A stretch of DNA of 64,000 nucleotides from Capnocytophaga sp. ARDL2 (GTDB taxonomy: Bacteria; Bacteroidota; Bacteroidia; Flavobacteriales; Flavobacteriaceae): contig NZ_CP168034.1 in the NCBI RefSeq assembly GCF_041530365.1, positions 372,001-436,000 of the forward strand, given 5' to 3'. Positions 1 to 52,591 of this stretch are shown in pieces. A model generated the notes under the pieces. It was not told the origin of the DNA, did no database searches, and saw only the letters and a program-made list of their open reading frames with translations. Both the position numbers and the translations under genes were made by a program. How positions within the stretch are numbered: the stretch's first letter is position 1; each line of letters starts with the position of its first letter.

Positions 1-125
1 TAGAAAATTCTTCAAATCAAAATACTCAAAAATGTATTGATCTATTGGAGTATATCAATAAAAATCACACCGTTTATTCTTTTGAAAGAGAAATGAAATT
101 GTCTAAATTGAAAAATTACATTTAA
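1..125 (+). CDS. C-terminal end of an unidentified protein (5' end outside window)
   Basis: A reading frame is open from the left edge and ends with TAA at 123-125. It encodes about 40 residues, ending SFEREMKLSKLKNYI. The start lies outside the window. The next gene begins 2 bp downstream, so the two are probably co-transcribed. By analogy with the downstream cassettes it may belong to the payload of a preceding bacteriocin cassette, but nothing in the residues identifies a family. Confidence 0.45.
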   Translation, partial: ENSSNQNTQKCIDLLEYINKNHTVYSFEREMKLSKLKNYI

Positions 126-127
126 AT

Positions 128-679
128 ATGAATAACAAAAATATAGCTATTTTATTAATAGCATCTAAAACGTTAGACTTAATCTCAACATACTTAGTTG
201 ACAAAACTCTTTCAACAGAAACGAGCATTTGGGTAAGTCGTTTTAATTTTGGTTGGAGTGGTTTTATATTAGTGAATATTATTTTTGTATTGTTTTTAGT
301 TTTTTTTCTACAAAAAGTAAACAAAAATACTAAAGTTGTTGAAGAACTAGAAAAAAATAAAACCTTTAATAGTTTTAAAGAATATTTTAATTATATTCTG
401 TTGGAAAGTAATACCAATAAAAGCTTTATTTATAAATTGTTATTTCAAAAAATTAGACTGTCTATTTTTACATATTTTTTTATTTATGCTCTTTCATATT
501 CCATAATAACAATGAGTTTTATTGTGTCCTTAAGTAATTTTATGATTTATTTTGATATTTACGATTTATCTCATCTTGAAGATGACTTCTTAGGTCTTTT
601 GTTGTTTATAATGAATATTTTTTGTCTTATTTATTTTTTTACAAAGCATATTTACAGACGGTATTTAAGATTTAATTAA
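128..679 (+). CDS. Multispanning membrane protein, candidate bacteriocin immunity protein
   Basis: The 183-residue protein has strongly hydrophobic segments at about residues 42-63, 110-142 and 153-171, and a weaker one at 5-24. A charged Lys/Glu-rich loop lies between segments. I recognise no family. It sits immediately upstream of a truncated hlyD copy, the same position held by the ABC-type module (1457-2993) and by the CPBP protein plus third precursor (3754-4530) in the next two cassettes. The inference is that it is the immunity or accessory gene of a cassette whose precursor lies left of the window. The function is not shown by the sequence. Confidence 0.6.
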   Translation: MNNKNIAILLIASKTLDLISTYLVDKTLSTETSIWVSRFNFGWSGFILVNIIFVLFLVFFLQKVNKNTKVVEELEKNKTFNSFKEYFNYILLESNTNKSFIYKLLFQKIRLSIFTYFFIYALSYSIITMSFIVSLSNFMIYFDIYDLSHLEDDFLGLLLFIMNIFCLIYFFTKHIYRRYLRFN

Positions 680-689
680 TGATTTTGAT

Positions 690-1094
690 TTGAAAAACAC
701 AGTATATAAAATCCTCCTCTTCTTTTTGTTCATAGCCATTGGAGTTTTATTCATCGTAGAGGTTCCTGTTTCCGTTTCTTCTCGTGGGGTGATAAGGTCT
801 CAATCCGAGAATACGCCAATCGTTTCGGCGGTGAGTGGTAGGGTGGTTTTCAACAAGTTGCAGAAAAACAACCAAGCCATACAGAAAGGAGATACTTTGC
901 TCATCGTTACTACCGAGCAATTGGACACTCAAAAAAGCCTTACCCATAGCCAAAGTGCAGATTTTCAAGCTCAATTATCAGACCTTTCAAAATTGGTCAA
1001 TGGCAATTACTCGGGTTTGCAAACGGGACTTCATCAACGAGAGGTTTCTGCGATGCGGGAGAGAATCGCACAGGTGCAGTCGCAGTTGGCATAG
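690..1094 (+). pseudogene. Truncated hlyD copy A (5' third of the adaptor gene)
   Basis: This frame encodes 134 residues nearly identical to the first 134 residues of the full adaptor at 4581-5672: membrane anchor, start of the lipoyl-like domain and first part of the coiled coil. It then ends in TAG just where the full gene continues. It begins with TTG, whereas the second copy has ATG. Past the stop the sequence is unrelated to hlyD and becomes a promoter region, so this is a recombination breakpoint rather than a point mutation. A working adaptor needs the missing beta-barrel half, so function is unlikely. The DNA probably serves as a homology block. Confidence 0.8.
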
Positions 1095-1183
1095 TTGTTT
1101 CATTCTCTACCAGTTTTTCACAAACTCACATAGTTAAAATTTAGTTAAATACATTTTTTTTTTTACATAAAAAAAAATTAATA

Positions 1184-1191
1184 TAGATTTG
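1184..1191 (+). promoter_or_regulatory. Bacteroidota -7 box (TAGATTTG) of cassette 1
   Basis: TAGATTTG matches the TAnnTTTG consensus. It lies 80 bp before the start codon of the precursor at 1272, and the same box is conserved in the second cassette. A poly-T tract occupies the expected -33 region, with no clear TTG element. Confidence 0.5.
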
Positions 1192-1271
1192 CACCCAAGA
1201 AAAACAAAAGTGCACAAAATATTTTTCTTATGAGTAGAAAAAATAAAAATTAATAATTAAATTTGTAAACA

Positions 1272-1400
1272 ATGAATTTAAACAAATTGAATGTTACTGA
1301 GTTGAATGCTCAGGAAATGAAAAACGTTGAAGGTGGTGCTATTCCTCTAATTGTTTGGGTAGCTGCTGCGTTTTTTGCTGGAACTTTTACAGCACGATAA
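1272..1400 (+). CDS. Double-glycine leader bacteriocin precursor 1 (42 aa)
   Basis: The peptide has a 22-residue leader ending NVEGG that shares its first 15 residues with precursor 2. The predicted 20-residue core, AIPLIVWVAAAFFAGTFTAR, is very hydrophobic and has no cysteine. The leader pattern (Leu/Asn-rich, then ELNAQE, then Gly-Gly) is the type cut by C39-peptidase ABC transporters such as the one at 6186-8333. A strong hairpin terminator follows at once. The adjacent ABC-type module is the likely immunity system. No modification enzyme is visible in the window, so an unmodified bacteriocin or a signalling peptide are both possible. Confidence 0.8.
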   Translation: MNLNKLNVTELNAQEMKNVEGGAIPLIVWVAAAFFAGTFTAR

Positions 1401-1407
1401 AAAACAA

Positions 1408-1438
1408 AAGTTCTTGGTTTAAAAACCAAGAACTTTTT
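1408..1438 (+). terminator. Hairpin terminator after precursor 1
   Basis: The inverted repeat AAGTTCTTGG / CCAAGAACTT with an 8-nt loop is followed by a T run. It probably attenuates transcription between the short precursor gene and the immunity genes, giving more peptide mRNA than immunity mRNA. Confidence 0.75.
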
Positions 1439-1456
1439 ACATATTATCATACACTA

Positions 1457-2347
1457 ATGAAGATATTATCAACTTTACTAACCGTAAGATTTCGCAAACT
1501 CTTGAATAAAAACGATAAAACAGCCGTAGTTTTATTGTTACTATTCTATTTTGCAATAGCATTTGGGGTTTTTCATCAATTTGAAGAATTAGGGAGTTGG
1601 TTTTATTTATTGTTTGTAGATGTTTTGGTGTATCATTTTAAAAGACAGGATGATAGATTATTGAAAATTCATAAAAATTATAAGAAAATTATTTTTATTG
1701 AATATCTTATTTACTCTTTTCCTTTTTTGTTGATTTTGCTTATAAAACAACATTTTTTGGCATTAGGAATATTGATGATTGCATTTTGGATTTTGCCTTA
1801 TTTACCTAAAATTCAAATGAAAACAATCAAATTGCCATTTGAAAGATTTGACCCTTTTTGGCATATTATTTTTAGAAAATATCATCTATTTTTTATTTAC
1901 ATCGCACTTTTGATTTTGAGCGGTATTGCTATTCATCTTTCAAATCAAAATTTACTGGTTGTTTTGTTTGGTAGTGTTGTGATTATTTGTTGTTTACCAG
2001 GGTTTGAAAGAGAAAATATTTTGGAAATAAAAATATCTCATTATTCAAGTTTTGAATTTCTAAACAAAAAAATGAAAACCACATTTGTAAATAGTTTGTA
2101 TTTACAATTTCCATTTCTTTTGTTATTGACAATCAATGATTTTTATTGGCTGAATCTGTTTTTATTTCTTCTTTTCATGAGTATTCCTTTATTGAATATC
2201 TTGTTGAAATACAGTAATTTTCAACATCCTATTAAACAACAATTGCTTTTTATATTTGGTATTTTCGGATTTGGGATTATTTATCTAATGATTCCATATT
2301 TATATAAATCATCAATTCGTCAAATTAATACAATCAAAAATGCTTGA
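1457..2347 (+). CDS. ABC transporter membrane subunit (putative immunity permease)
   Basis: The 296-residue protein begins MKILSTLLTVRF and has about seven to eight hydrophobic segments. An open frame extends 34 codons further upstream, but it runs through the precursor gene and the terminator, so the ATG at 1457 is chosen. The gene overlaps the ATPase start at 2340 by 8 bp, indicating translational coupling. Paired permease and ATPase genes beside a bacteriocin precursor commonly act as self-immunity exporters (LanFEG-like arrangement). The permease sequence has no diagnostic motif, so the assignment rests on context. Confidence 0.7.
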   Translation: MKILSTLLTVRFRKLLNKNDKTAVVLLLLFYFAIAFGVFHQFEELGSWFYLLFVDVLVYHFKRQDDRLLKIHKNYKKIIFIEYLIYSFPFLLILLIKQHFLALGILMIAFWILPYLPKIQMKTIKLPFERFDPFWHIIFRKYHLFFIYIALLILSGIAIHLSNQNLLVVLFGSVVIICCLPGFERENILEIKISHYSSFEFLNKKMKTTFVNSLYLQFPFLLLLTINDFYWLNLFLFLLFMSIPLLNILLKYSNFQHPIKQQLLFIFGIFGFGIIYLMIPYLYKSSIRQINTIKNA

Positions 2348-2993
2348 GGTTCAAATCACAGAAAAAAAATACGGCAACCAATTGGTTTTAGAAAATTTAA
2401 ACCTAACCATTACAACGAACGGAATTTATGGTATTGTAGGAAAAAATGGGGAGGGAAAAACTACCTTGTTTCATTCGATATTGGGGATTGAAAAACACAA
2501 AGGAAAAAGCACTTTAAAGCAACAGAATATCAATTTGCAAAAGGCTGCGTATTGTCCTGCTGAACCTTTTATTTATGAAGAACTTACAGCATCTGAATTT
2601 TATGATTTTTACGCAGAATTGTTAAATATCAGTTATTTAAATTCAAAAAATATATTGTTTGATATTCCGAAAAATCAGCAAATAAAATATTTTTCAACAG
2701 GAATGAAAAAAAAAGCTTATTTGAATGCTATTTTTCAAAAAGAATATTCGTTGTATGTTTTAGACGAACCTTTCAATGGATTAGACATTGAATCCAACTA
2801 TCAGTTAATGAATTATTTAAAAGAAATTTCAAAACAAACAATTATTCTCATTTCATCACATATTATTGATGTATTGTACAAGCATTGCGAAAAAATATAC
2901 TTGCTTCAAAACAAAACATTACAGGAATTTTCTTCTGAAAATTATGAGTTAATTGAAGCAAAATTAGTTAATAATGAAAAACACAGTATATAA
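2340..2993 (+). CDS. ABC transporter ATP-binding protein (putative immunity ATPase)
   Basis: The 217-residue protein has Walker A GKNGEGKTT at about 34-42, a variant signature FSTGM at 118-122 in place of LSGGQ, Walker B YVLDEP near 139-144 and the switch histidine near 174. This is the compact ATPase form that pairs with a separate permease. It follows the permease with an 8-bp overlap and probably powers extrusion of the cognate bacteriocin. Its last residues (after about 212) are read from the start of the hlyD repeat in another frame, so its native C-terminus was probably replaced when the repeat was joined. Confidence 0.85.
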   Translation: MLEVQITEKKYGNQLVLENLNLTITTNGIYGIVGKNGEGKTTLFHSILGIEKHKGKSTLKQQNINLQKAAYCPAEPFIYEELTASEFYDFYAELLNISYLNSKNILFDIPKNQQIKYFSTGMKKKAYLNAIFQKEYSLYVLDEPFNGLDIESNYQLMNYLKEISKQTIILISSHIIDVLYKHCEKIYLLQNKTLQEFSSENYELIEAKLVNNEKHSI

Positions 2994-3378
2994 AATCCTC
3001 CTCTTCTTTTTGTTCATAGCCATTGGAGTTTTATTCATCGTAGAGGTTCCTGTTTCCGTTTCTTCTCGTGGGGTGATAAGGTCTCAATCTGAGAATACAC
3101 CAATCGTTTCGGCGGTGAGTGGTAGGGTGGTTTTCAACAAGTTGCAAAAAAACAACCAAGCCATACAGAAAGGAGATACTTTGCTCATCGTTACTACCGA
3201 GCAATTGGACACTCAAAAAAGCCTTACCCATAGCCAAAGTGCAGATTTTCAAGCTCAATTATCAGACCTTTCTAAATTGGTCAATGGCAATTACTCGGGT
3301 TTACAAACGGATCTTTATCAACGAGAGGTTTCTGCGATGCGGGAGAGAATCGCACAGGTGCAGTCGCAGTTGGCATAG
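2974..3378 (+). pseudogene. Truncated hlyD copy B
   Basis: This is a second 134-codon copy of the adaptor's 5' end, differing from copy A by a few residues (for example Asp-Leu-Tyr instead of Gly-Leu-His near residue 113). It starts with ATG at 2974, inside the last codons of the ATPase gene, and ends in TAG at the same place as copy A. As in copy A, the distal half of the adaptor is absent, so it cannot replace the complete gene at 4581. Confidence 0.8.
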
Positions 3379-3469
3379 TTGTTTCATTCTCTACCAGTTT
3401 TTCACAAACTCACATAGTTAAAATTTAGTTAAATACATTTTTTTTTTTTTTACATAAAAAAAATTTAAT

Positions 3470-3477
3470 ATAGATTT
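3470..3477 (+). promoter_or_regulatory. Bacteroidota -7 box (TAGATTTG) of cassette 2
   Basis: This is the copy of the box at 1184-1191, located 81 bp before the start of precursor 2 and inside the duplicated block. It should drive both cassettes in the same way. Confidence 0.5.
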
Positions 3478-3558
3478 GCACCCAAGAAAAACAAAAGTGC
3501 ACAAAATATTTTTCTTATGAGTACAAAAAATAAAAATTAATAATTAAATTTGTAAACA

Positions 3559-3744
3559 ATGAATTTAAACAAATTGAATGTTACTGAGTTGAATGCTCAG
3601 GAGGTATTAGAGGTAGAAGGTGGTAATAAATACAAGAAAGCTTGGAAATTAATAGAAAAAGGCCTTACCCTTATAGGTGTTGCAGATGCTGTTGAAAGAT
3701 TTGTAGACGGCTGGAACTCGGAAAGTTGTGGTTGTAATAAATAA
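3559..3744 (+). CDS. Double-glycine leader bacteriocin precursor 2 (61 aa)
   Basis: The first 15 residues are the same as in precursor 1, and the leader ends LEVEGG at residue 22. The 39-residue core begins NKYKKAWKLIEKGLTLIG and ends SESCGCNK. It is mixed amphipathic, with two cysteines near the C-terminus that could form a disulfide or link to something else. The core is unrelated to core 1 although the leaders match, as expected for cassette exchange. The CPBP-family gene 10 bp downstream is the probable immunity gene. Confidence 0.85.
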   Translation: MNLNKLNVTELNAQEVLEVEGGNKYKKAWKLIEKGLTLIGVADAVERFVDGWNSESCGCNK

Positions 3745-3753
3745 TGTAAAGTT

Positions 3754-4338
3754 TTGAATAAAAAAAAGTATATACTATTATACATAATTTCGATAATCAC
3801 TGTATTTTTTTTTGAATTTATTGAAAGGTGTTATAATATAGAATATCCAAAAAATGAAATAGTAGAATATAAGGAATCTATCTTATTGTTAATATTAACT
3901 GGGGTAATTTTAGCTCCAATAGTAGAAGAAATAATGTTTAGGCATCCTTTTGTTAAGAGTAAATTTTCATACATTTCATTAATTATAGGTTCGCTTTTAA
4001 TTCTATTAATGAGTTCGCATTGGATGTTTTGGATATTGTATCTATTAACTAATATCACTACTTTTTATTTGTATTATTATAAAAAGTATAGTAAAATACC
4101 GTATTTTATACTTTTAATTTATTCAATTTTATTTATTTTTTTACATACAGAAAATTATAAAATGGATGAAATATTAAAAATGCCTTTCTATAATATATTG
4201 TTACTATTTTCTTCACAAATAACATTGACAATTATTTTAGGATACATTAGAATAAAATCCAAAAGACTTTATCCTACAATATTATTTCACTCAATTTATA
4301 ATTTAACTATCGTATTATTATCAATATTAGATTTGTAA
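3754..4338 (+). CDS. CPBP-family intramembrane protein (putative bacteriocin immunity)
   Basis: The 194-residue multispanning protein carries the family motifs: EEIMFR at about residues 58-63 and the distal HSIYN near 178-182. CPBP (Abi/CAAX-processing-like) proteins are often found beside bacteriocin genes and confer self-immunity. The start is TTG at 3754, 10 bp after precursor 2, with no better start nearby. It lies between precursors 2 and 3 and ends 6 bp before precursor 3, so all three probably share one transcript. Confidence 0.8.
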   Translation: MNKKKYILLYIISIITVFFFEFIERCYNIEYPKNEIVEYKESILLLILTGVILAPIVEEIMFRHPFVKSKFSYISLIIGSLLILLMSSHWMFWILYLLTNITTFYLYYYKKYSKIPYFILLIYSILFIFLHTENYKMDEILKMPFYNILLLFSSQITLTIILGYIRIKSKRLYPTILFHSIYNLTIVLLSILDL

Positions 4339-4344
4339 ATTATC

Positions 4345-4530
4345 ATGAAACAAAAAATAAATTTAAAGGAATTAAACTTAGAAGAATTAAAACTAATCGA
4401 AGGAGGTGATTGGATTTATGATTTAGGTGCTGCTACAAAAAGAGCTATTTGTAAAATTGGTGTAGCGATTGTTAAATCTACATATAATAAAGATTTAACT
4501 TTAGGGCATGTAGGAGGTGGAAGACCATAA
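4345..4530 (+). CDS. Double-glycine leader bacteriocin precursor 3 (61 aa)
   Basis: The leader MKQKINLKELNLEELKLIEG plus one further Gly is only distantly similar to leaders 1 and 2. The 40-residue core starts DWIYDLGAATKRAICKIG and ends GHVGGGRP, with one cysteine. There is no separate promoter. It follows the CPBP gene by 6 bp and is closed by a hairpin. It may be the partner of precursor 2 in a two-peptide bacteriocin, or an independent peptide. Confidence 0.8.
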   Translation: MKQKINLKELNLEELKLIEGGDWIYDLGAATKRAICKIGVAIVKSTYNKDLTLGHVGGGRP

Positions 4531-4535
4531 AAATA

Positions 4536-4568
4536 AAATGAGGTTGTCAAATGGCAACCTCATAATTT
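4536..4568 (+). terminator. Hairpin terminator after precursor 3
   Basis: The inverted repeat ATGAGGTTG / CAACCTCAT with an 8-nt loop precedes AATTTTAT. It separates the cassette from the full-length hlyD gene starting 13 bp later. Confidence 0.7.
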
Positions 4569-4580
4569 TATCATTAAACA

Positions 4581-5672
4581 ATGAAACTAAAAATTTACCA
4601 ACTTCTTCTCTTATTTTTGTTCATAGCCATTGGAGTTTTATTCATCGTAGAGGTTCCTGTTTCCGTTTCTTCTCGTGGGGTGATAAGGTCTCAATCCGAG
4701 AATACGCCAATCGTTTCGGCGGTGAGTGGTAGGGTGGTTTTCAACAAGTTGGAGAAAAACAACCAAGCCATACAGAAAGGAGATACTTTGCTCATCGTTA
4801 CTACCGAGCAATTGGACACTCAAAAAAGCCTTACCCATAGCCAAAGTGCAGATTTTCAAGCTCAATTATCAGACCTTTCTAAATTGGTCAATGGTAATTA
4901 CTCGGGTTTGCAAACGGGTCTTTATCAACGAGAGGTTTCTGCGATGCAGGAGAGAATCGCACAGGTGCAGTCGCAGTTGGCATTGGCAACCAAAGATTTG
5001 GAAAGAGCTACTACGCTTTACCATCAAGGGGTGATTGCTAAGGCAGAATACGATAAATATTTCCACGACCACCAAGGGCTGAGCCGGCAAGTGGCAAGCA
5101 TCCGCGAACAACAAGTAGCTCAGTGGCAAACGCAAAAAAGAGAAACAGAAAGACAACTCAGAGCTTTAGGCTCGGAAATTCAAAAAATCAATCAAGAACA
5201 AAAAAATTATGTGGTTACTGCTCATTCGTCTGGTCATTTGGTTGGCTTCACAGGTATAAAAGAGGGTAGTTTTGTAGCTCAAGGTCAAGCTGTTGGAGAG
5301 ATTTCTCCCAAAGAAAATCTATTGGCAGAATGTTTGGTTTTGCCCAAAGATATTGGTTTTGTAAAGTTAGGTCAAGAGGTTAAATTTCAGATAGATACCT
5401 ACAACTATAATCAATGGGGATTGCTGGACGGTAAAGTCTCTGAAATAGACCAAAATATTACCAGCAATCAGCAAACTGGTGAAGCGTATTTTCGGGTACT
5501 TTGCAAAATGAACAGCGATTTCCTCCAACTCAAAAATGGTTATAAAGGTCAGATTGGCAAAGGGATGACGCTCACCGCAAGATTTCACCTTACAGACCGT
5601 ACACTTTGGCAACTTCTTTTTGATAAAATCGATGATTGGATGAACCCTAATTTAATGAGTAATGAGCAATGA
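4581..5672 (+). CDS. HlyD-type membrane fusion protein (bacteriocin export adaptor)
   Basis: The 363-residue periplasmic adaptor links the inner membrane ABC transporter to the TolC channel. It has a membrane anchor at residues 5-24, a biotinyl/lipoyl-like half-motif with QSENTPIVSAVSGRVV near 38-53, a long coiled coil at about 90-210, a second lipoyl half near 215-240 and a C-terminal beta-barrel region. It is the only complete copy among three. Its first 11 or so codons differ from the truncated copies, while codons 12-134 are almost identical to them. The transporter gene follows after a 513-bp interruption carrying an unrelated minus-strand gene. Confidence 0.88.
   Translation: MKLKIYQLLLLFLFIAIGVLFIVEVPVSVSSRGVIRSQSENTPIVSAVSGRVVFNKLEKNNQAIQKGDTLLIVTTEQLDTQKSLTHSQSADFQAQLSDLSKLVNGNYSGLQTGLYQREVSAMQERIAQVQSQLALATKDLERATTLYHQGVIAKAEYDKYFHDHQGLSRQVASIREQQVAQWQTQKRETERQLRALGSEIQKINQEQKNYVVTAHSSGHLVGFTGIKEGSFVAQGQAVGEISPKENLLAECLVLPKDIGFVKLGQEVKFQIDTYNYNQWGLLDGKVSEIDQNITSNQQTGEAYFRVLCKMNSDFLQLKNGYKGQIGKGMTLTARFHLTDRTLWQLLFDKIDDWMNPNLMSNEQ
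4615..4983 (+). repeat. hlyD segment shared with truncated copies A and B
   Basis: This 369-bp internal segment is nearly identical to the corresponding parts of 690-1094 and 2974-3378. Homology begins just after the start of the membrane anchor and stops exactly where the truncated copies break off. It provides a third homology arm for recombination. Confidence 0.85.
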
Positions 5673-6185: not shown

Positions 6186-8333
6186 ATGTTAGTAAAACAG
6201 CACGACATCAAAGACTGCGGAGCGGCGTGTTTGGCTTCCGTAGGGGCGTACTATGGACTGAAAATGCCGATTGCCAAAATCCGACAAATCTGCCATACCG
6301 ACACTCGTGGGACGAATGTCTTGGGGATGATACAAGGTTTGGAAGCTATGGGGTTCAATGCCAAAGGCGTAAAAGGTGGATTAGATGCCTTACCAGATAT
6401 TCCACTTCCTGCTATTGCTCATATTGTAGTCAATGGGCAATTACACCATTTTGTAGTCATTTATAAAGTGGGGAAAGGCAAAATCCAAGTGATGGATCCC
6501 GCTTATGGCAAAATGGAAGACTATACTCTTGAAAAATTTGCCGAAGTATGGACAGGTGTTTTGATTCTCTTAGAACCCAACGAATATTTTGAGCAAAAAG
6601 ACGACAAAACTTCCATTTATTCTCGTTTTTGGAATTTGGTTCAACCGCACAAAAGCATATTGTTTCAGGCACTTTTGGGGGCGGTGATTTATACCGTTTT
6701 GGGACTTTCCACCTCTATTTACATCGAAAAAATTACCGATTATGTCCTCATAGACGGCAACCGAAGATTGCTCAACTTGCTGAGTATCGGAATGATAGTA
6801 ATTTTGCTATTCCAAGTTTTTATCGGAGTGGTAAAATCTGTTTTGATGCTTCAAACAGGGCAGAAAATGGACAAACACTTGATTTTAGGCTATTACAAAC
6901 ATCTTTTGAAATTACCGCAACGATTTTTTGACACAATGAAAGTGGGAGAAATTATTTCTCGTGTCAATGATGCGGTAAAAATCCGTGCGTTTATCAATGA
7001 TGTGGCGATTCAGATATTTGTGAATGTGTTCATTGTGTTGTTTTCCTTTGCCTTGATGTTTACCTATTATTGGAAACTCGCCCTCATTGTGGCATTGGTG
7101 ATTCCGTTTTACTTTTTGGTGTATTGGCTTACGAACAAGCTCAACAAAAAGGTAGAAAGACAACTGATGGAAGAAAGTGCAGAGTTAGAATCTCATTTGG
7201 TAGAATCGCTCAATTCGGTACGAACGATAAAGCAATTTGGCGTAGAAACTTTTGCCAATAACAAGACGGATAATCAATTTACCCAACTTCTCAAAACCAT
7301 TTACAAATCGGTTCTGAACTCACTTTTTTCGGGCAACTCATCCGAATTTTTATCGAGGATTTTTACTATCGTCTTACTTTGGGCAGGTGCTGGTTATGTG
7401 ATAGATAGAGAAATTACCGCAGGAGAGTTATTGTCTTTTTACGCTTTGATTGGCTATTTCACAGGTCCCGTTTCGGAATTGATAGGAATGAACAAAACCG
7501 TTCAAAATGCCCTTATTGCCGCCGATAGGTTGTTTGAAATTATGGATTTGGAAAGAGAGGAAACCACTGATAAAATGGAACTTACCCCTGAAACCATAGG
7601 GAACATAGAGTTCAAAGATGTAGATTTTAGTTACGGTTCCAGAGTAGATGTTTTTCAAGGGTTTAATTGCTTGATAGAGAAAGGAAAAACCACCGCCATA
7701 GTAGGCGAAAGTGGTAGCGGAAAGACCACTTTGGCATCATTGATTCAGAATTTATATCCATTGAAAAAGGGTAAAATCACGATTGGAGATTACGACATCA
7801 ATTATATTTCCAATTATTCGCTTCGCACGATGGTTTCCGTAGTGCCACAGCAGATAGATTTGTTTTCTGGCAATGTGATAGAAAACATCGCTTTGGGCGA
7901 AGATGTTCCTGATATGCAACGCATTATAACTATTGTCAAAAACTTAGGAATTTTGGAATTTATAGAAAAATTACCCAATGGTTTTCAGACCTATTTAGGT
8001 GAAAATGGTTCGCAACTTTCGGGTGGACAAAAACAACGCATTGCCATTGCCCGTGCTTTGTACAAAAATCCCGAAATCTTGATTTTAGATGAGGCAACTT
8101 CTTCCTTAGACACCGAATCTGAACAGGTGATTCAAGCAACTTTAAACGAATTTAAAGCCCAAGGCAAAACGATGATTGTCATTGCCCACAGGCTCAGCAC
8201 CATTGCCCACGCCGATACCATTTTGGTAATGAAAAACGGCGAAGTGATAGAACGAGGCTCTCACTCCGAGTTGCTTTCTTTTGACTCTTCCTATAAAAAA
8301 ATGTGGGAGAAGCAGAGTGGTTCGTTATCTTAA
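6186..8333 (+). CDS. Peptidase C39 ABC transporter (leader-cleaving bacteriocin exporter)
   Basis: The 715-residue PCAT protein cuts precursors after Gly-Gly and exports the core. The N-terminal C39 domain has the oxyanion Gln5, catalytic Cys11 in KDCGAAC, His88 in HHFVVIY and Asp104 in MDPAYG. The membrane domain spans about 155-430. The ATPase domain has GESGSGKTT near 507-515, LSGGQ near 611, LILDEA near 631 and the switch His near 667. All key residues are present. It belongs with hlyD (4581) and tolC (8342, 8 bp downstream), and the double-glycine precursors at 1272, 3559 and 4345 are its evident substrates. Confidence 0.93.
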   Translation: MLVKQHDIKDCGAACLASVGAYYGLKMPIAKIRQICHTDTRGTNVLGMIQGLEAMGFNAKGVKGGLDALPDIPLPAIAHIVVNGQLHHFVVIYKVGKGKIQVMDPAYGKMEDYTLEKFAEVWTGVLILLEPNEYFEQKDDKTSIYSRFWNLVQPHKSILFQALLGAVIYTVLGLSTSIYIEKITDYVLIDGNRRLLNLLSIGMIVILLFQVFIGVVKSVLMLQTGQKMDKHLILGYYKHLLKLPQRFFDTMKVGEIISRVNDAVKIRAFINDVAIQIFVNVFIVLFSFALMFTYYWKLALIVALVIPFYFLVYWLTNKLNKKVERQLMEESAELESHLVESLNSVRTIKQFGVETFANNKTDNQFTQLLKTIYKSVLNSLFSGNSSEFLSRIFTIVLLWAGAGYVIDREITAGELLSFYALIGYFTGPVSELIGMNKTVQNALIAADRLFEIMDLEREETTDKMELTPETIGNIEFKDVDFSYGSRVDVFQGFNCLIEKGKTTAIVGESGSGKTTLASLIQNLYPLKKGKITIGDYDINYISNYSLRTMVSVVPQQIDLFSGNVIENIALGEDVPDMQRIITIVKNLGILEFIEKLPNGFQTYLGENGSQLSGGQKQRIAIARALYKNPEILILDEATSSLDTESEQVIQATLNEFKAQGKTMIVIAHRLSTIAHADTILVMKNGEVIERGSHSELLSFDSSYKKMWEKQSGSLS

Positions 8334-8341
8334 ACTAACTA

Positions 8342-9685
8342 ATGATGAGAAAAATTACATTCATTACTATTCTATTGACTAGTTTTTTATTAAATGCTCA
8401 AAAAAAGTGGACATTAGAAGAAGCGGTCGAATATGCTATGAAAAACAATTTGCAGATAGTTTATAATCAACAGTTATATGAATATGAATATAAAAACGTG
8501 CAGATTGCTAAAAACGATTATTTGCCTGTGGTTTCTTCAAACTTTAACAATGTGTTGAGGCTTGGACAGACGCAAGGTTTTCAAGGGGGAATCGGAAGAA
8601 ACGATAATTACAGTAACGAATTGAGTGTGTCGGCAAATTTGCTTATTTACAACGGTGGAAGACTGAAAAAGAATGTTGAAAAAAAACAATTGGATGTAGA
8701 AATTACTAAACAAACGATTGAAATTGTAAAAAATGATATACACCTACAAATTCTACAACAATTTCTTTCTATTAACCTCAATAAAGAATTGTTGAAAATC
8801 CGTCAAAGTGCGTTGGAAAATGCAGAAAAAATCTTGGAAAGAGCCAAAATTACCACAACTGTAGGGACAACATCACGAACGGTTTTAGCCGAAGCCGAAG
8901 CTACTGTTTCTTCCGAAAAACAAAAACTGAAACAAGCAGAAATTGACATAAAAAGAAGTCTTTTTAAATTAGCACAAATACTTCAATTGAAAGATTATCA
9001 GTATTTTGATATTGAAGAAGAAGTGTTAGAAGAAAAAATAATTCCTTATTCATTAAATCAAACCATAGAAATAGCTCTTGCCAATCATCCCACAATAAAG
9101 TCAGCGGAATTTAAGATAAAATCAGCGGGAAAACAAACCGAAATTGTAGAAACCGCCTATCTTCCAATGATAAATTTCAATGCAGGTGTAGGATCGTTTT
9201 ATTACAATTCATTGGTAACAAATATCACTGGGATTGATGCGATGGGAAATTACATCAAAGAAGCTACAATGTTTACTCAATTCAAAAATAACTTTTTTCA
9301 ACAAATGGGCGTATCAGTTAGCATTCCCATTTTCAACAAAGGAAACACAAAAGTTCAAGTGGCACAATCCAAAATAAACGAAGACATTGTCAAACAAAAT
9401 TTAGCCATAAAAAAACAAGAATTGATAGAAAATATTCAAAAGGTATATTTTGATATGGAGAGCCACTTTCAAACAATGATGAGTGCAATAGAAACAGAAA
9501 AAAGCACAGCATTAGCTTTGGACTTTGCAGAAAAAAGTTATGAAGCAGGAAAAAGCAGTATTTACGATTTGAATATCGCAAGAAACAATTTTATAACAGC
9601 GAAAAGTTCTGTGGTTCAAGCCCAACACAACTATATTTTCAATTTGAAAATTTTAGAGGTCTATATGAGAGGGGAAGATTTATAA
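8342..9685 (+). CDS. TolC-family outer membrane efflux protein
   Basis: The 447-residue protein begins with a signal peptide, MMRKITFITILLTSFLLNAQ. It has the two alpha-helical hairpin halves of the family; the first half has the typical WTLEEAVEYAMKNN start, and the second an IEIALANHPTIKSAE segment. It should form the outer membrane channel of the type I export system with the adaptor and the C39 transporter. It follows the transporter by 8 bp and is the last gene of the operon. Confidence 0.9.
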   Translation: MMRKITFITILLTSFLLNAQKKWTLEEAVEYAMKNNLQIVYNQQLYEYEYKNVQIAKNDYLPVVSSNFNNVLRLGQTQGFQGGIGRNDNYSNELSVSANLLIYNGGRLKKNVEKKQLDVEITKQTIEIVKNDIHLQILQQFLSINLNKELLKIRQSALENAEKILERAKITTTVGTTSRTVLAEAEATVSSEKQKLKQAEIDIKRSLFKLAQILQLKDYQYFDIEEEVLEEKIIPYSLNQTIEIALANHPTIKSAEFKIKSAGKQTEIVETAYLPMINFNAGVGSFYYNSLVTNITGIDAMGNYIKEATMFTQFKNNFFQQMGVSVSIPIFNKGNTKVQVAQSKINEDIVKQNLAIKKQELIENIQKVYFDMESHFQTMMSAIETEKSTALALDFAEKSYEAGKSSIYDLNIARNNFITAKSSVVQAQHNYIFNLKILEVYMRGEDL

Positions 9686-51805: not shown

Positions 51806-51921
51806 GGTTAAAGATTTATACTTTGTTTTTAGGGATTTAAAAATTGTATAATGTATTATTATAAATTGTATAATGTATATTATCAGACAGTTTCATATTC
51901 TTACATTTTTATTGAATAAAT

Positions 51922-52517
51922 CCGTTGTGCATTATGAAATAAATAAAAAAAGCTGTTCATTTAACTGAAAATCAGTATATTTTGTTCGATAAAACAAATC
52001 AAAAATGAACAACTTAAGACAAATATACGAAAGAATTTTAGAAGTTTTAAAAAAGTTTTTCCCTCATCAGCTTTTACCTTATCAAAGGAGAAAGCCAAAA
52101 ATGAGTGATTTAGAACTTGTGAGTTTGAATTTAACTGCTGAATATTTAAGTATTGATAATGAAATGCAACTGTTTAGAAAACTACCTAATTCTTTGAGAA
52201 ACAAAATAGAAAGGAGTGTTTACAACAAAAGAAAATAGAATTTTTTTATCATATAAATCAGATTAGGGAAAAAATTTACTTATTCAAGAAAAAGAGGAAA
52301 AGAATCGAAACATAATTTTGACTTCGTCGAATCTTCGATTTCGCAGTTATGTGATCAATTTATGATTAAAAGGAATTATACAAAATCATTCAACGGTTTT
52401 AAAACACGAATTATCAGTAAAATAACTACTTTAACCTTAATTCAATACATTAACAAATTTGTATTAAAAAAGGAAATAAATAAAATTAAAGCAAGTATAA
52501 TTTAAAATGCACAACGG
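51922..52517 (+). mobile_element. Internally deleted IS982-type element
   Basis: Perfect 12-bp terminal inverted repeats CCGTTGTGCATT (51922-51933) and AATGCACAACGG (52506-52517) bound 596 bp. The left part encodes a transposase N-terminus (52005-52238, MNNLRQIYERILEVLKKFFP, ending ERSVYNKRK). The right part encodes a transposase C-terminus (about 52320-52504, FVESSISQLCDQFMIKRNY and YINKFVLKKEINKIKASII). The middle with the catalytic core is missing, so it cannot move by itself. Confidence 0.75.
52005..52238 (+). pseudogene. Transposase N-terminal fragment
   Basis: The 77-residue fragment has the N-terminal pattern of flavobacterial IS982-family transposases (PYQRRKPKMSDLELVSLNLT and AEYLSIDNEMQLFRKLP). 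It ends at a stop where a deletion removed the catalytic part. Confidence 0.7.
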
Positions 52518-52591
52518 GTTGAATAACTATTCAATTGTAAAGAAATAAACAATCTACAATTGCTACAATCTACATTATACAATCTACAATA

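Follow-up and report, generated by a model that had tools for sequence, protein, structure and literature searches.

A likely bacteriocin cassette array with repeated hlyD 5′ fragments at its joints in Capnocytophaga sp. ARDL2

The genome of Capnocytophaga sp. ARDL2 (2.51 Mb, one contig) probably carries a chromosomal array of class II-type (double-glycine, GG) bacteriocin cassettes that undergo exchange by homologous recombination, ahead of one hlyD–C39 ABC–TolC operon. We analyzed a 64,000-nucleotide stretch of this genome (the window; G000:C1:372001-436000), and the surroundings of the array were read as a 20-kb locus (L009). The array has four modules (M1 to M4), with M1 and M2 starting left of the window. 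Three 134-codon hlyD 5′ fragments (the scars B1, B2, and B3) and one full hlyD precede the C39-ABC and TolC genes. An earlier note on this DNA, made from the sequence alone, had proposed one exporter for all cassettes, and the cassettes do precede a single C39 exporter gene.

Joint blocks

Two blocks (690-1317 and 2974-3603), each made up of an hlyD part, a promoter, and about 15 leader codons, match at 98%, and the hlyD part recurs in the full hlyD at 97%. This agrees with the earlier note, which described two near-identical blocks of about 630 bp, each with a 134-codon hlyD part, a promoter, and a leader start, and the same segment in the full hlyD at 4581. The further payload that it placed before the first block is M2; the array extends left from there, with a third block and M1 outside the window. 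The three block copies match each other at E 7e-305 or lower. All three scars break at one identical hlyD base (the junction reads ...GTTGGCAT, then AG), and the common promoter region follows. Across the promoter-leader part (225 columns) the blocks differ by 2-3 substitutions and at most 3 gap columns; identity stops after leader codon ~15.

The four hlyD copies differ unevenly along their length. Pairwise differences in nucleotides 37-402 (the body) number 5-11, and those in nucleotides 1-36 (the tip) number 5-13 in five of the six pairs and only one between B2 and B3. B2 and the full hlyD differ at 13/36 positions in the tip versus 6/366 in the body (Fisher 5e-11). The same test gives 1.3e-8 for B1-B2, 1.7e-6 for B1-B3, 8e-4 for B1 and the full copy, 3e-9 for B3 and the full copy, and 0.57 for B2-B3, which have the same tip. 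By these counts, nucleotides 1-36 travel with the cassette and nucleotides 37-402 do not. Since identity on the other side is lost after leader codon ~15, each cassette extends from within the final third of a leader to hlyD codon ~12. The earlier note had put the junctions at the hlyD start codon, a placement that needs correction: the edges lie near codon 12, and cassettes bring their own first ~12 codons and the leader end.

The promoter region of the blocks contains a sigma-70-like match (TTTACA-16-TAGATT) at an identical position in B2 and B3; such matches occur in that region at near-chance frequency (37 versus a mean of 30.9, sd 5.3). The region may also hold the Bacteroidota TAnnTTTG motif. 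Ahead of the leader there is a conserved 22-nt element, AAGAAAAACAAA.GTGCACAAA, at 1197-1218 and 3484-3505 and in a Cloacibacterium block (L112:2792-2813), perhaps a regulator site or a 5′ untranslated region signal. A 31-nt element is common to L112 and the window blocks (28/31), and its exact pattern before a leader occurs, among loci L009-L188, only in the window array and L112.

Payloads

The four payloads have no common DNA at E 0.01, save 19 nt of leader and one 31-nt stretch of M1 and M4, which corresponds to the C-terminal LGH[AV]GGGRP of the M1 precursor and M4b. The earlier description of the payloads between the blocks as unrelated thus holds, as does its gene list (a 20-aa core with an ABC pair, then a 39-aa core, a CPBP protein, and a further precursor). 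Similarity between the CPBP proteins of M1 and M4 is not significant (E 3.6).

All five precursor open reading frames have a double-glycine leader, and each of the four modules retains a precursor. The class IIb model TIGR03949 (cutoff 21.5) is passed by M2 (29.4 bits) and M3 (30.7 bits); M3 (E 0.0025) and M4b (E 0.0023) match Bacteriocin_IIc below its cutoff. Putative immunity genes encode CPBP proteins in M1 and M4 and an ABC pair in M3. The 113-aa protein of M2 has 27% identity over 124 aa (blastp, E 7e-6) to a 127-aa protein in bacteriocin locus L105; neither it nor the 183-aa protein of M2 matches a Pfam or NCBIfam family above cutoff.

Pairs of the M3 type (a homologue of the 296-aa protein beside an ABC ATPase) were found in 11 other fetched loci, downstream of a C39 gene in 6 of them. 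Nine of the 11 have a GG precursor just upstream, and in these nine the core begins, like that of M3, with two hydrophobic residues, P, and L or I, behind a different leader. Such pairs behind different leaders fit payloads that move between leaders. When the M2 precursor served as a query for further cores that carry its leader, the protein collection yielded three proteins, all of them the array's own M2, M3, and M4a; the M3 and M4a precursors also occur on a second contig, and three proteins are too few to show payload variation.

Arrays in related genomes

Arrays in F. glaciei (G029, L090, the same record as L167), G200 (L089), and G294 (L092) lie at one chromosomal place, and the flanking genes of G112 (L104) are similar to those of that locus. 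In F. glaciei the order is cassette A (with a CPBP gene), a scar breaking at about codon 130 of its own hlyD, the repeated promoter, cassette B, full hlyD, and C39. In G200 cassette C comes first, with a scar of about 270 codons behind it; the repeated promoter region then leads to cassette A, and the hlyD that follows is broken. The cassette A copies of F. glaciei and G200 have 92% identity over 1199 nt and occupy different positions in their arrays.

G294 and G200 have a left flank in common (93% over 1.9 kb), the leader start, one scar joint (85% over 864 nt, both scars ending ...SVLPNHFKSYF), and the promoter region after the scar. The payloads between flank and scar have no blastn or tblastx match to each other at E 1e-3; the G294 payload resembles the first G112 cassette instead (60% over 67 aa). 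The G294 contig stops 1.5 kb past the scar, and its full hlyD and C39 gene sit on another contig (L093). In G200 (L089) a deletion fuses hlyD to the C39 3′ end, and no intact exporter is present in the 19 kb read. G279 (L094) has a similar deletion, which joins hlyD codon ~241 directly to C39 residue 521 onward.

Other lineages have arrays with joints of their own. L102 (G062) has three modules with two scars of ~17 codons and promoter-leader repeats of 88-94%, and L104 (G112) combines two modules with a scar of ~49 codons (79%) and promoter-leader repeats of 95%. In the Cloacibacterium metagenome-assembled genome (MAG) of L112 the scar ends at codon ~61-63, within the 3′ end of an antisense helix-turn-helix gene (PF01381), followed by the promoter region and a leader. 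Counted in each lineage's own hlyD, the joints fall at about codons 17, 49, 61, 103, 130, 134, and 270. The expectation that junctions always fall at codon 134 does not extend to these lineages. Lineage-specific joints make the scar look like a rare illegitimate joint that was later copied and used as homology.

We compared the full hlyD of each locus with the rest of that locus in 101 loci, some from one genome, 95 of which have a long hlyD open reading frame. All ten hlyD-derived matches are 5′ parts, upstream, and on the same strand. There are three C39 matches: two in L109, from the C39 3′ end and close to the contig start, and one in L113, on the reverse strand. The L109 pieces, in a Cruoricaptor MAG, are short and lie at 93-154 upstream of the full operon; perhaps they derive from a lost second operon. 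In a Flavobacterium locus, a separate segment immediately before hlyD (L103:8714-9094) is 31% identical to the peptidase domain of C39.

At least five genomes besides the source genome have hlyD 5′ scars. The hlyD N-terminal model matches 41 of 299 Flavobacterium genomes; G000, G029, G200, G112, and G235 have extra 5′ fragments, G294 has a truncated copy, and the copies in G157 and G269 are decayed or frameshifted. In Weeksellaceae the model matches 32 of 320 genomes; G398 has fragments, and those of G411 and G566 are short or decayed. There are 89 distinct loci with hlyD, and at least 2.5 kb of upstream sequence was available in 71. An automated test detected array repeats in 15 of the 71 (promoter-leader in 14, hlyD 5′ or pre-hlyD in 6). 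Five of the latter 6 are hlyD coding scars; the number of loci with such scars rises to 6 if the L180 match (67 nt, 76%) is counted. This rate is biased upward by the window's own locus and by loci fetched for a seen fragment, and the test misses some repeats that the locus comparison lists.

Scar proteins in a protein collection

Among ~5.8 billion clustered proteins, the 134-aa scar product retrieved 20 proteins and one of the proteins compared, P0013, retrieved 71 (55 new); sequences were compared for all 20 of the first set and for 47 of the new proteins in the second. P0001 is encoded on a 2512-bp contig and is likewise 134 aa long. It joins a tip identical to that of the full hlyD (0 differences, residues 2-12) to a body identical to that of B3 (0 differences, residues 13-134), a combination that is absent from the four hlyD copies of the source genome.

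Four groups of scar proteins have their end in common and differ in the tip. The group ending in FCNSS has 8 clusters with 6 tips (0-19/26 differences in the tip, 1-7/46 in the body). Six clusters with 4 tips end in SLESA, where P0013 and P0015 differ at 15/26 tip and 1/100 body positions. A pair ending in FNSFI differs at 15/26 and 1/86, and one ending in HKGETLLIVT at 15/26 and 1/48; the last pair ends within hlyD sequence and so may represent contig ends, as may many other truncated proteins in both search results. From their similarity to L112, we infer a Cloacibacterium-like origin for the database scar proteins.

Proposed mechanism and alternatives

The basic unit consists of a promoter, a leader, one or more core peptides, one or more predicted immunity genes, and the hlyD start, and four such units stand in tandem. 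One illegitimate event, such as a tandem duplication or a homology-facilitated insertion, would have linked codon 134 of hlyD to the upstream flank of a promoter. The resulting hlyD′-promoter-leader block would then provide homology arms on both sides of the cassettes, which could be added, moved, and replaced through ordinary homologous recombination with DNA of other strains. In each module with an intact block, the module's promoter would drive expression, the one C39 exporter would cleave and secrete the precursor, and the immunity gene would protect the cell.

Homologous exchange is supported by the tip/body mosaic, the G200 and G294 payloads, the two positions of cassette A, and P0001. 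The earlier note had new payloads entering through the hlyD 5′ end and the leader as arms, each leaving a scar; the exchange part of that proposal stands, and a new scar for every insertion does not.

A number of results weigh against cassette exchange in a bacteriocin array. M1, M4a, and M4b reach the cutoff of no bacteriocin model, and M3 also narrowly exceeds the cutoff of a model for lanthipeptide leader domains (NF038153, 22.9 versus 22 bits). The array of the source species is known at the DNA level from one strain only, and the whole 630-bp block is absent elsewhere in 398 same-genus genomes, the source genome included (first 2 candidates per genome scored), with short matches only, the largest of those listed being 84 nt; this search thus revealed no near relative of the array. 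By the automated test, 56 of the 71 loci have no such repeat. P0001, P0013, and the other database scar proteins are known from protein sequence alone; the source of P0001 is given as "-", and a short contig across near-identical repeats could be an assembly chimera. The tips could also have diverged by selection on the membrane anchor, which is unlikely because of differences of 15/26 versus 1/100.

It is improbable that old, independent modules make up an array of fixed content whose blocks are kept uniform by gene conversion. Conversion is generally expected between repeats of ~590 bp, and it would also produce an abrupt end of identity near codon 12 of hlyD and codon 15 of the leader. A fixed array leaves the G200 and G294 payloads, the positions of cassette A, and P0001 unexplained unless exchange also occurs.

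We see little room for plain tandem duplication of one bacteriocin operon whose payloads then diverged with no cassette import. Tandem units with a common joint are its expected product, L157 looks like a simple case (an 83% repeat runs through the leader into the core in both copies), and the two cassettes of G112 are weakly similar as proteins (34% over 65 aa). Divergence in place is hard to reconcile with blocks that are ~98% identical around payloads that share essentially no DNA, the CPBP pair included, and with M3-type pairs in the 11 other loci, so that relatives in other genomes are partly seen for M3.

Misassembly of the repeats, for which repeats of 600 bp are a classic source, is very unlikely in a single-contig genome whose blocks are told apart by point differences with unique payloads between them, and the same type of architecture recurs in assemblies of other species. 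A dedicated site-specific system (integron-like or transposon-borne) with hlyD as attachment site would suit unrelated contents in cassette order between constant joints and the insertion sequence remnant at the left end, and is scarcely credible: the joint codon differs by lineage, which leaves no common recombination site at all joints, and no recombinase was recognized by eye among the open reading frames of the array region (no dedicated or genome-wide integrase search was made).

Beyond cassette exchange itself, we tentatively suggest, as a possibility that we rather doubt, an integrase-free analogue of the integron in Flavobacteriales: open-ended arrays in which modules are kept active, fragments of the 5′ end of an exporter gene act as portable homology arms, and newcomers enter beside the exporter and push older modules upstream. 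Entry beside the exporter is suggested by P0001, which puts the tip of the full hlyD on an interior-type scar.

Organization of the region

The features of the array and its export operon are collected in Table 1. The C39 exporter matches PF03412 at E 1.6e-33 and TIGR01193 at 529.4 bits (cutoff 523.85). Proteins of Weeksellaceae share 80-85% identity with it, one from a Tenacibaculum MAG 83%, and other Flavobacterium homologues 64-68%; because the nearest relatives are in Weeksellaceae, the export operon was probably acquired horizontally. A gene for a 23S rRNA-intervening-sequence-type protein (PF05635) lies between hlyD and the C39 gene (5684-6040, reverse strand), and relatives occupy this position, on one strand or the other, in L093, L102, L116, L154, L160, L169, L170, and L181.

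A degraded insertion sequence (IS) copy at L009:7590-8225 (~1775-2410 bp left of the window start), which we take to be of the IS982 type, forms the left border of the array. This stretch has 59 matches in the genome including itself, one of them at window 51918-52518. It has taken the place of the M1 promoter region, which is lost, and M1 may be silent.

The array is flanked by PF21948 and PF00133 genes, presumably lipB-like and ileS-like, respectively. An empty site was sought through both flanks in 21 relatives; in the two compared, G010 and G007, the flanks are on one contig at a distance of over 500 kb, which leaves no readable empty site.

Table 1. Predicted features of the bacteriocin array and export operon (window positions unless prefixed)
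Feature	Position	Strand	Remarks
M1 precursor	L009:8231		GG leader open reading frame; leader start also matched at C1:370208
M1 CPBP protein	L009:8469		PF02517
Scar B1	L009:8968-9372		hlyD 5′, 134 codons
B1 repeat block	G000:C1:370990-371596		98% match to window blocks
M2 precursor	L009:9553		GG leader, TIGR03949
M2 113-aa protein	starts L009:9784; 3′ part at 1..125	+	likely immunity protein
M2 183-aa predicted membrane protein	128..679	+	likely immunity protein
hlyD′ scar B2	690..1094	+	134 codons, starts TTG
Repeat-block promoter region	1095..1271	+	with AAGAAAAACAAAAGTGCACAAA element
M3 GG precursor	1272..1400	+	leader 22 aa, hydrophobic core 20 aa
M3 296-aa membrane protein	1457..2347	+	predicted ABC immunity permease
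M3 ABC ATPase	2340..2993	+	PF00005 E 1.9e-15; 3′ end overlaps start of scar B3
hlyD′ scar B3	2974..3378	+	134 codons
Repeat-block promoter region	3379..3558	+	
M4a GG precursor	3559..3744	+	leader and 39-aa core
M4 CPBP-type membrane protein	3754..4338	+	PF02517 E 9.6e-11; likely immunity protein
M4b GG precursor	4345..4530	+	
Full hlyD (membrane fusion protein)	4581..5672	+	PF13437 E 1.8e-15
C39 peptidase-containing ABC exporter	6186..8333	+	PF03412, PF00664, PF00005, TIGR01193
TolC-like outer membrane factor	8342..9685	+	PF02321 E 4.3e-50

Comparison with known systems

Together with the similar arrays of related bacteria, the array suggests that these bacteria accumulate and exchange peptide weapons that share a single export machine. 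The pneumococcal blp locus has strain-variable genes for double-glycine bacteriocins and immunity proteins and a C39-type ABC exporter; we know of no adaptor-gene fragments that recur, with promoter and leader, between its payloads. Neither joints made of hlyD fragments nor this type of array is named in the titles and abstract openings that searches of the open-licence literature retrieved. A possible parallel, PMC11798529, was set aside, as no such joints are shown in the portion available. Bacteroidetocins, bacteriocin-like peptides of Bacteroidota, are described as related to class IIa, and the available part of that report does not mention cassette arrays (PMC6671954).

The closest likenesses are to orphan toxin arrays. 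In contact-dependent inhibition (CDI) and Rhs systems, unrelated toxin/immunity contents stand in tandem, many of them after a fragment of a conserved system gene; modules are found at different positions in related strains, and recombination in the conserved part has been proposed (PMC3150448). The window array likewise repeats part of a conserved gene of its system next to modules that are unrelated. The repeated piece in CDI/Rhs is part of the toxin gene, and orphan fragments are generally without translation start signals (PMC3150448), whereas in the window array it is the 5′ end of the adaptor gene hlyD; a promoter region comes next, and modules with a full block have a precursor gene of their own, complete and with its leader. 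For the type VI secretion system (T6SS) immunity arrays of Vibrio cholerae, stepwise growth by incoming modules with one homologous and one illegitimate end has been proposed, with later spread by homologous recombination; old effectors are displaced there and immunity genes stay (PMC5361080), whereas precursor and putative immunity genes both stay in the window array. Our proposed route, in which a joint forms and then serves as homology, parallels these proposals for Vibrio T6SS (PMC5361080) and for the rearrangement of CDI orphans (PMC3150448).

If this is correct, Gram-negative Bacteroidota diversify small peptide weapons through a constant exporter, constant arms, and exchangeable content. 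The arms are recognizable by sequence, so hlyD 5′ scars could be used to mine metagenomes for bacteriocin/immunity pairs and to trace cassette traffic in nature. The logic of the orphan toxin arrays of CDI, Rhs, and T6SS would then extend to secreted bacteriocins, with stored modules that appear ready for expression.

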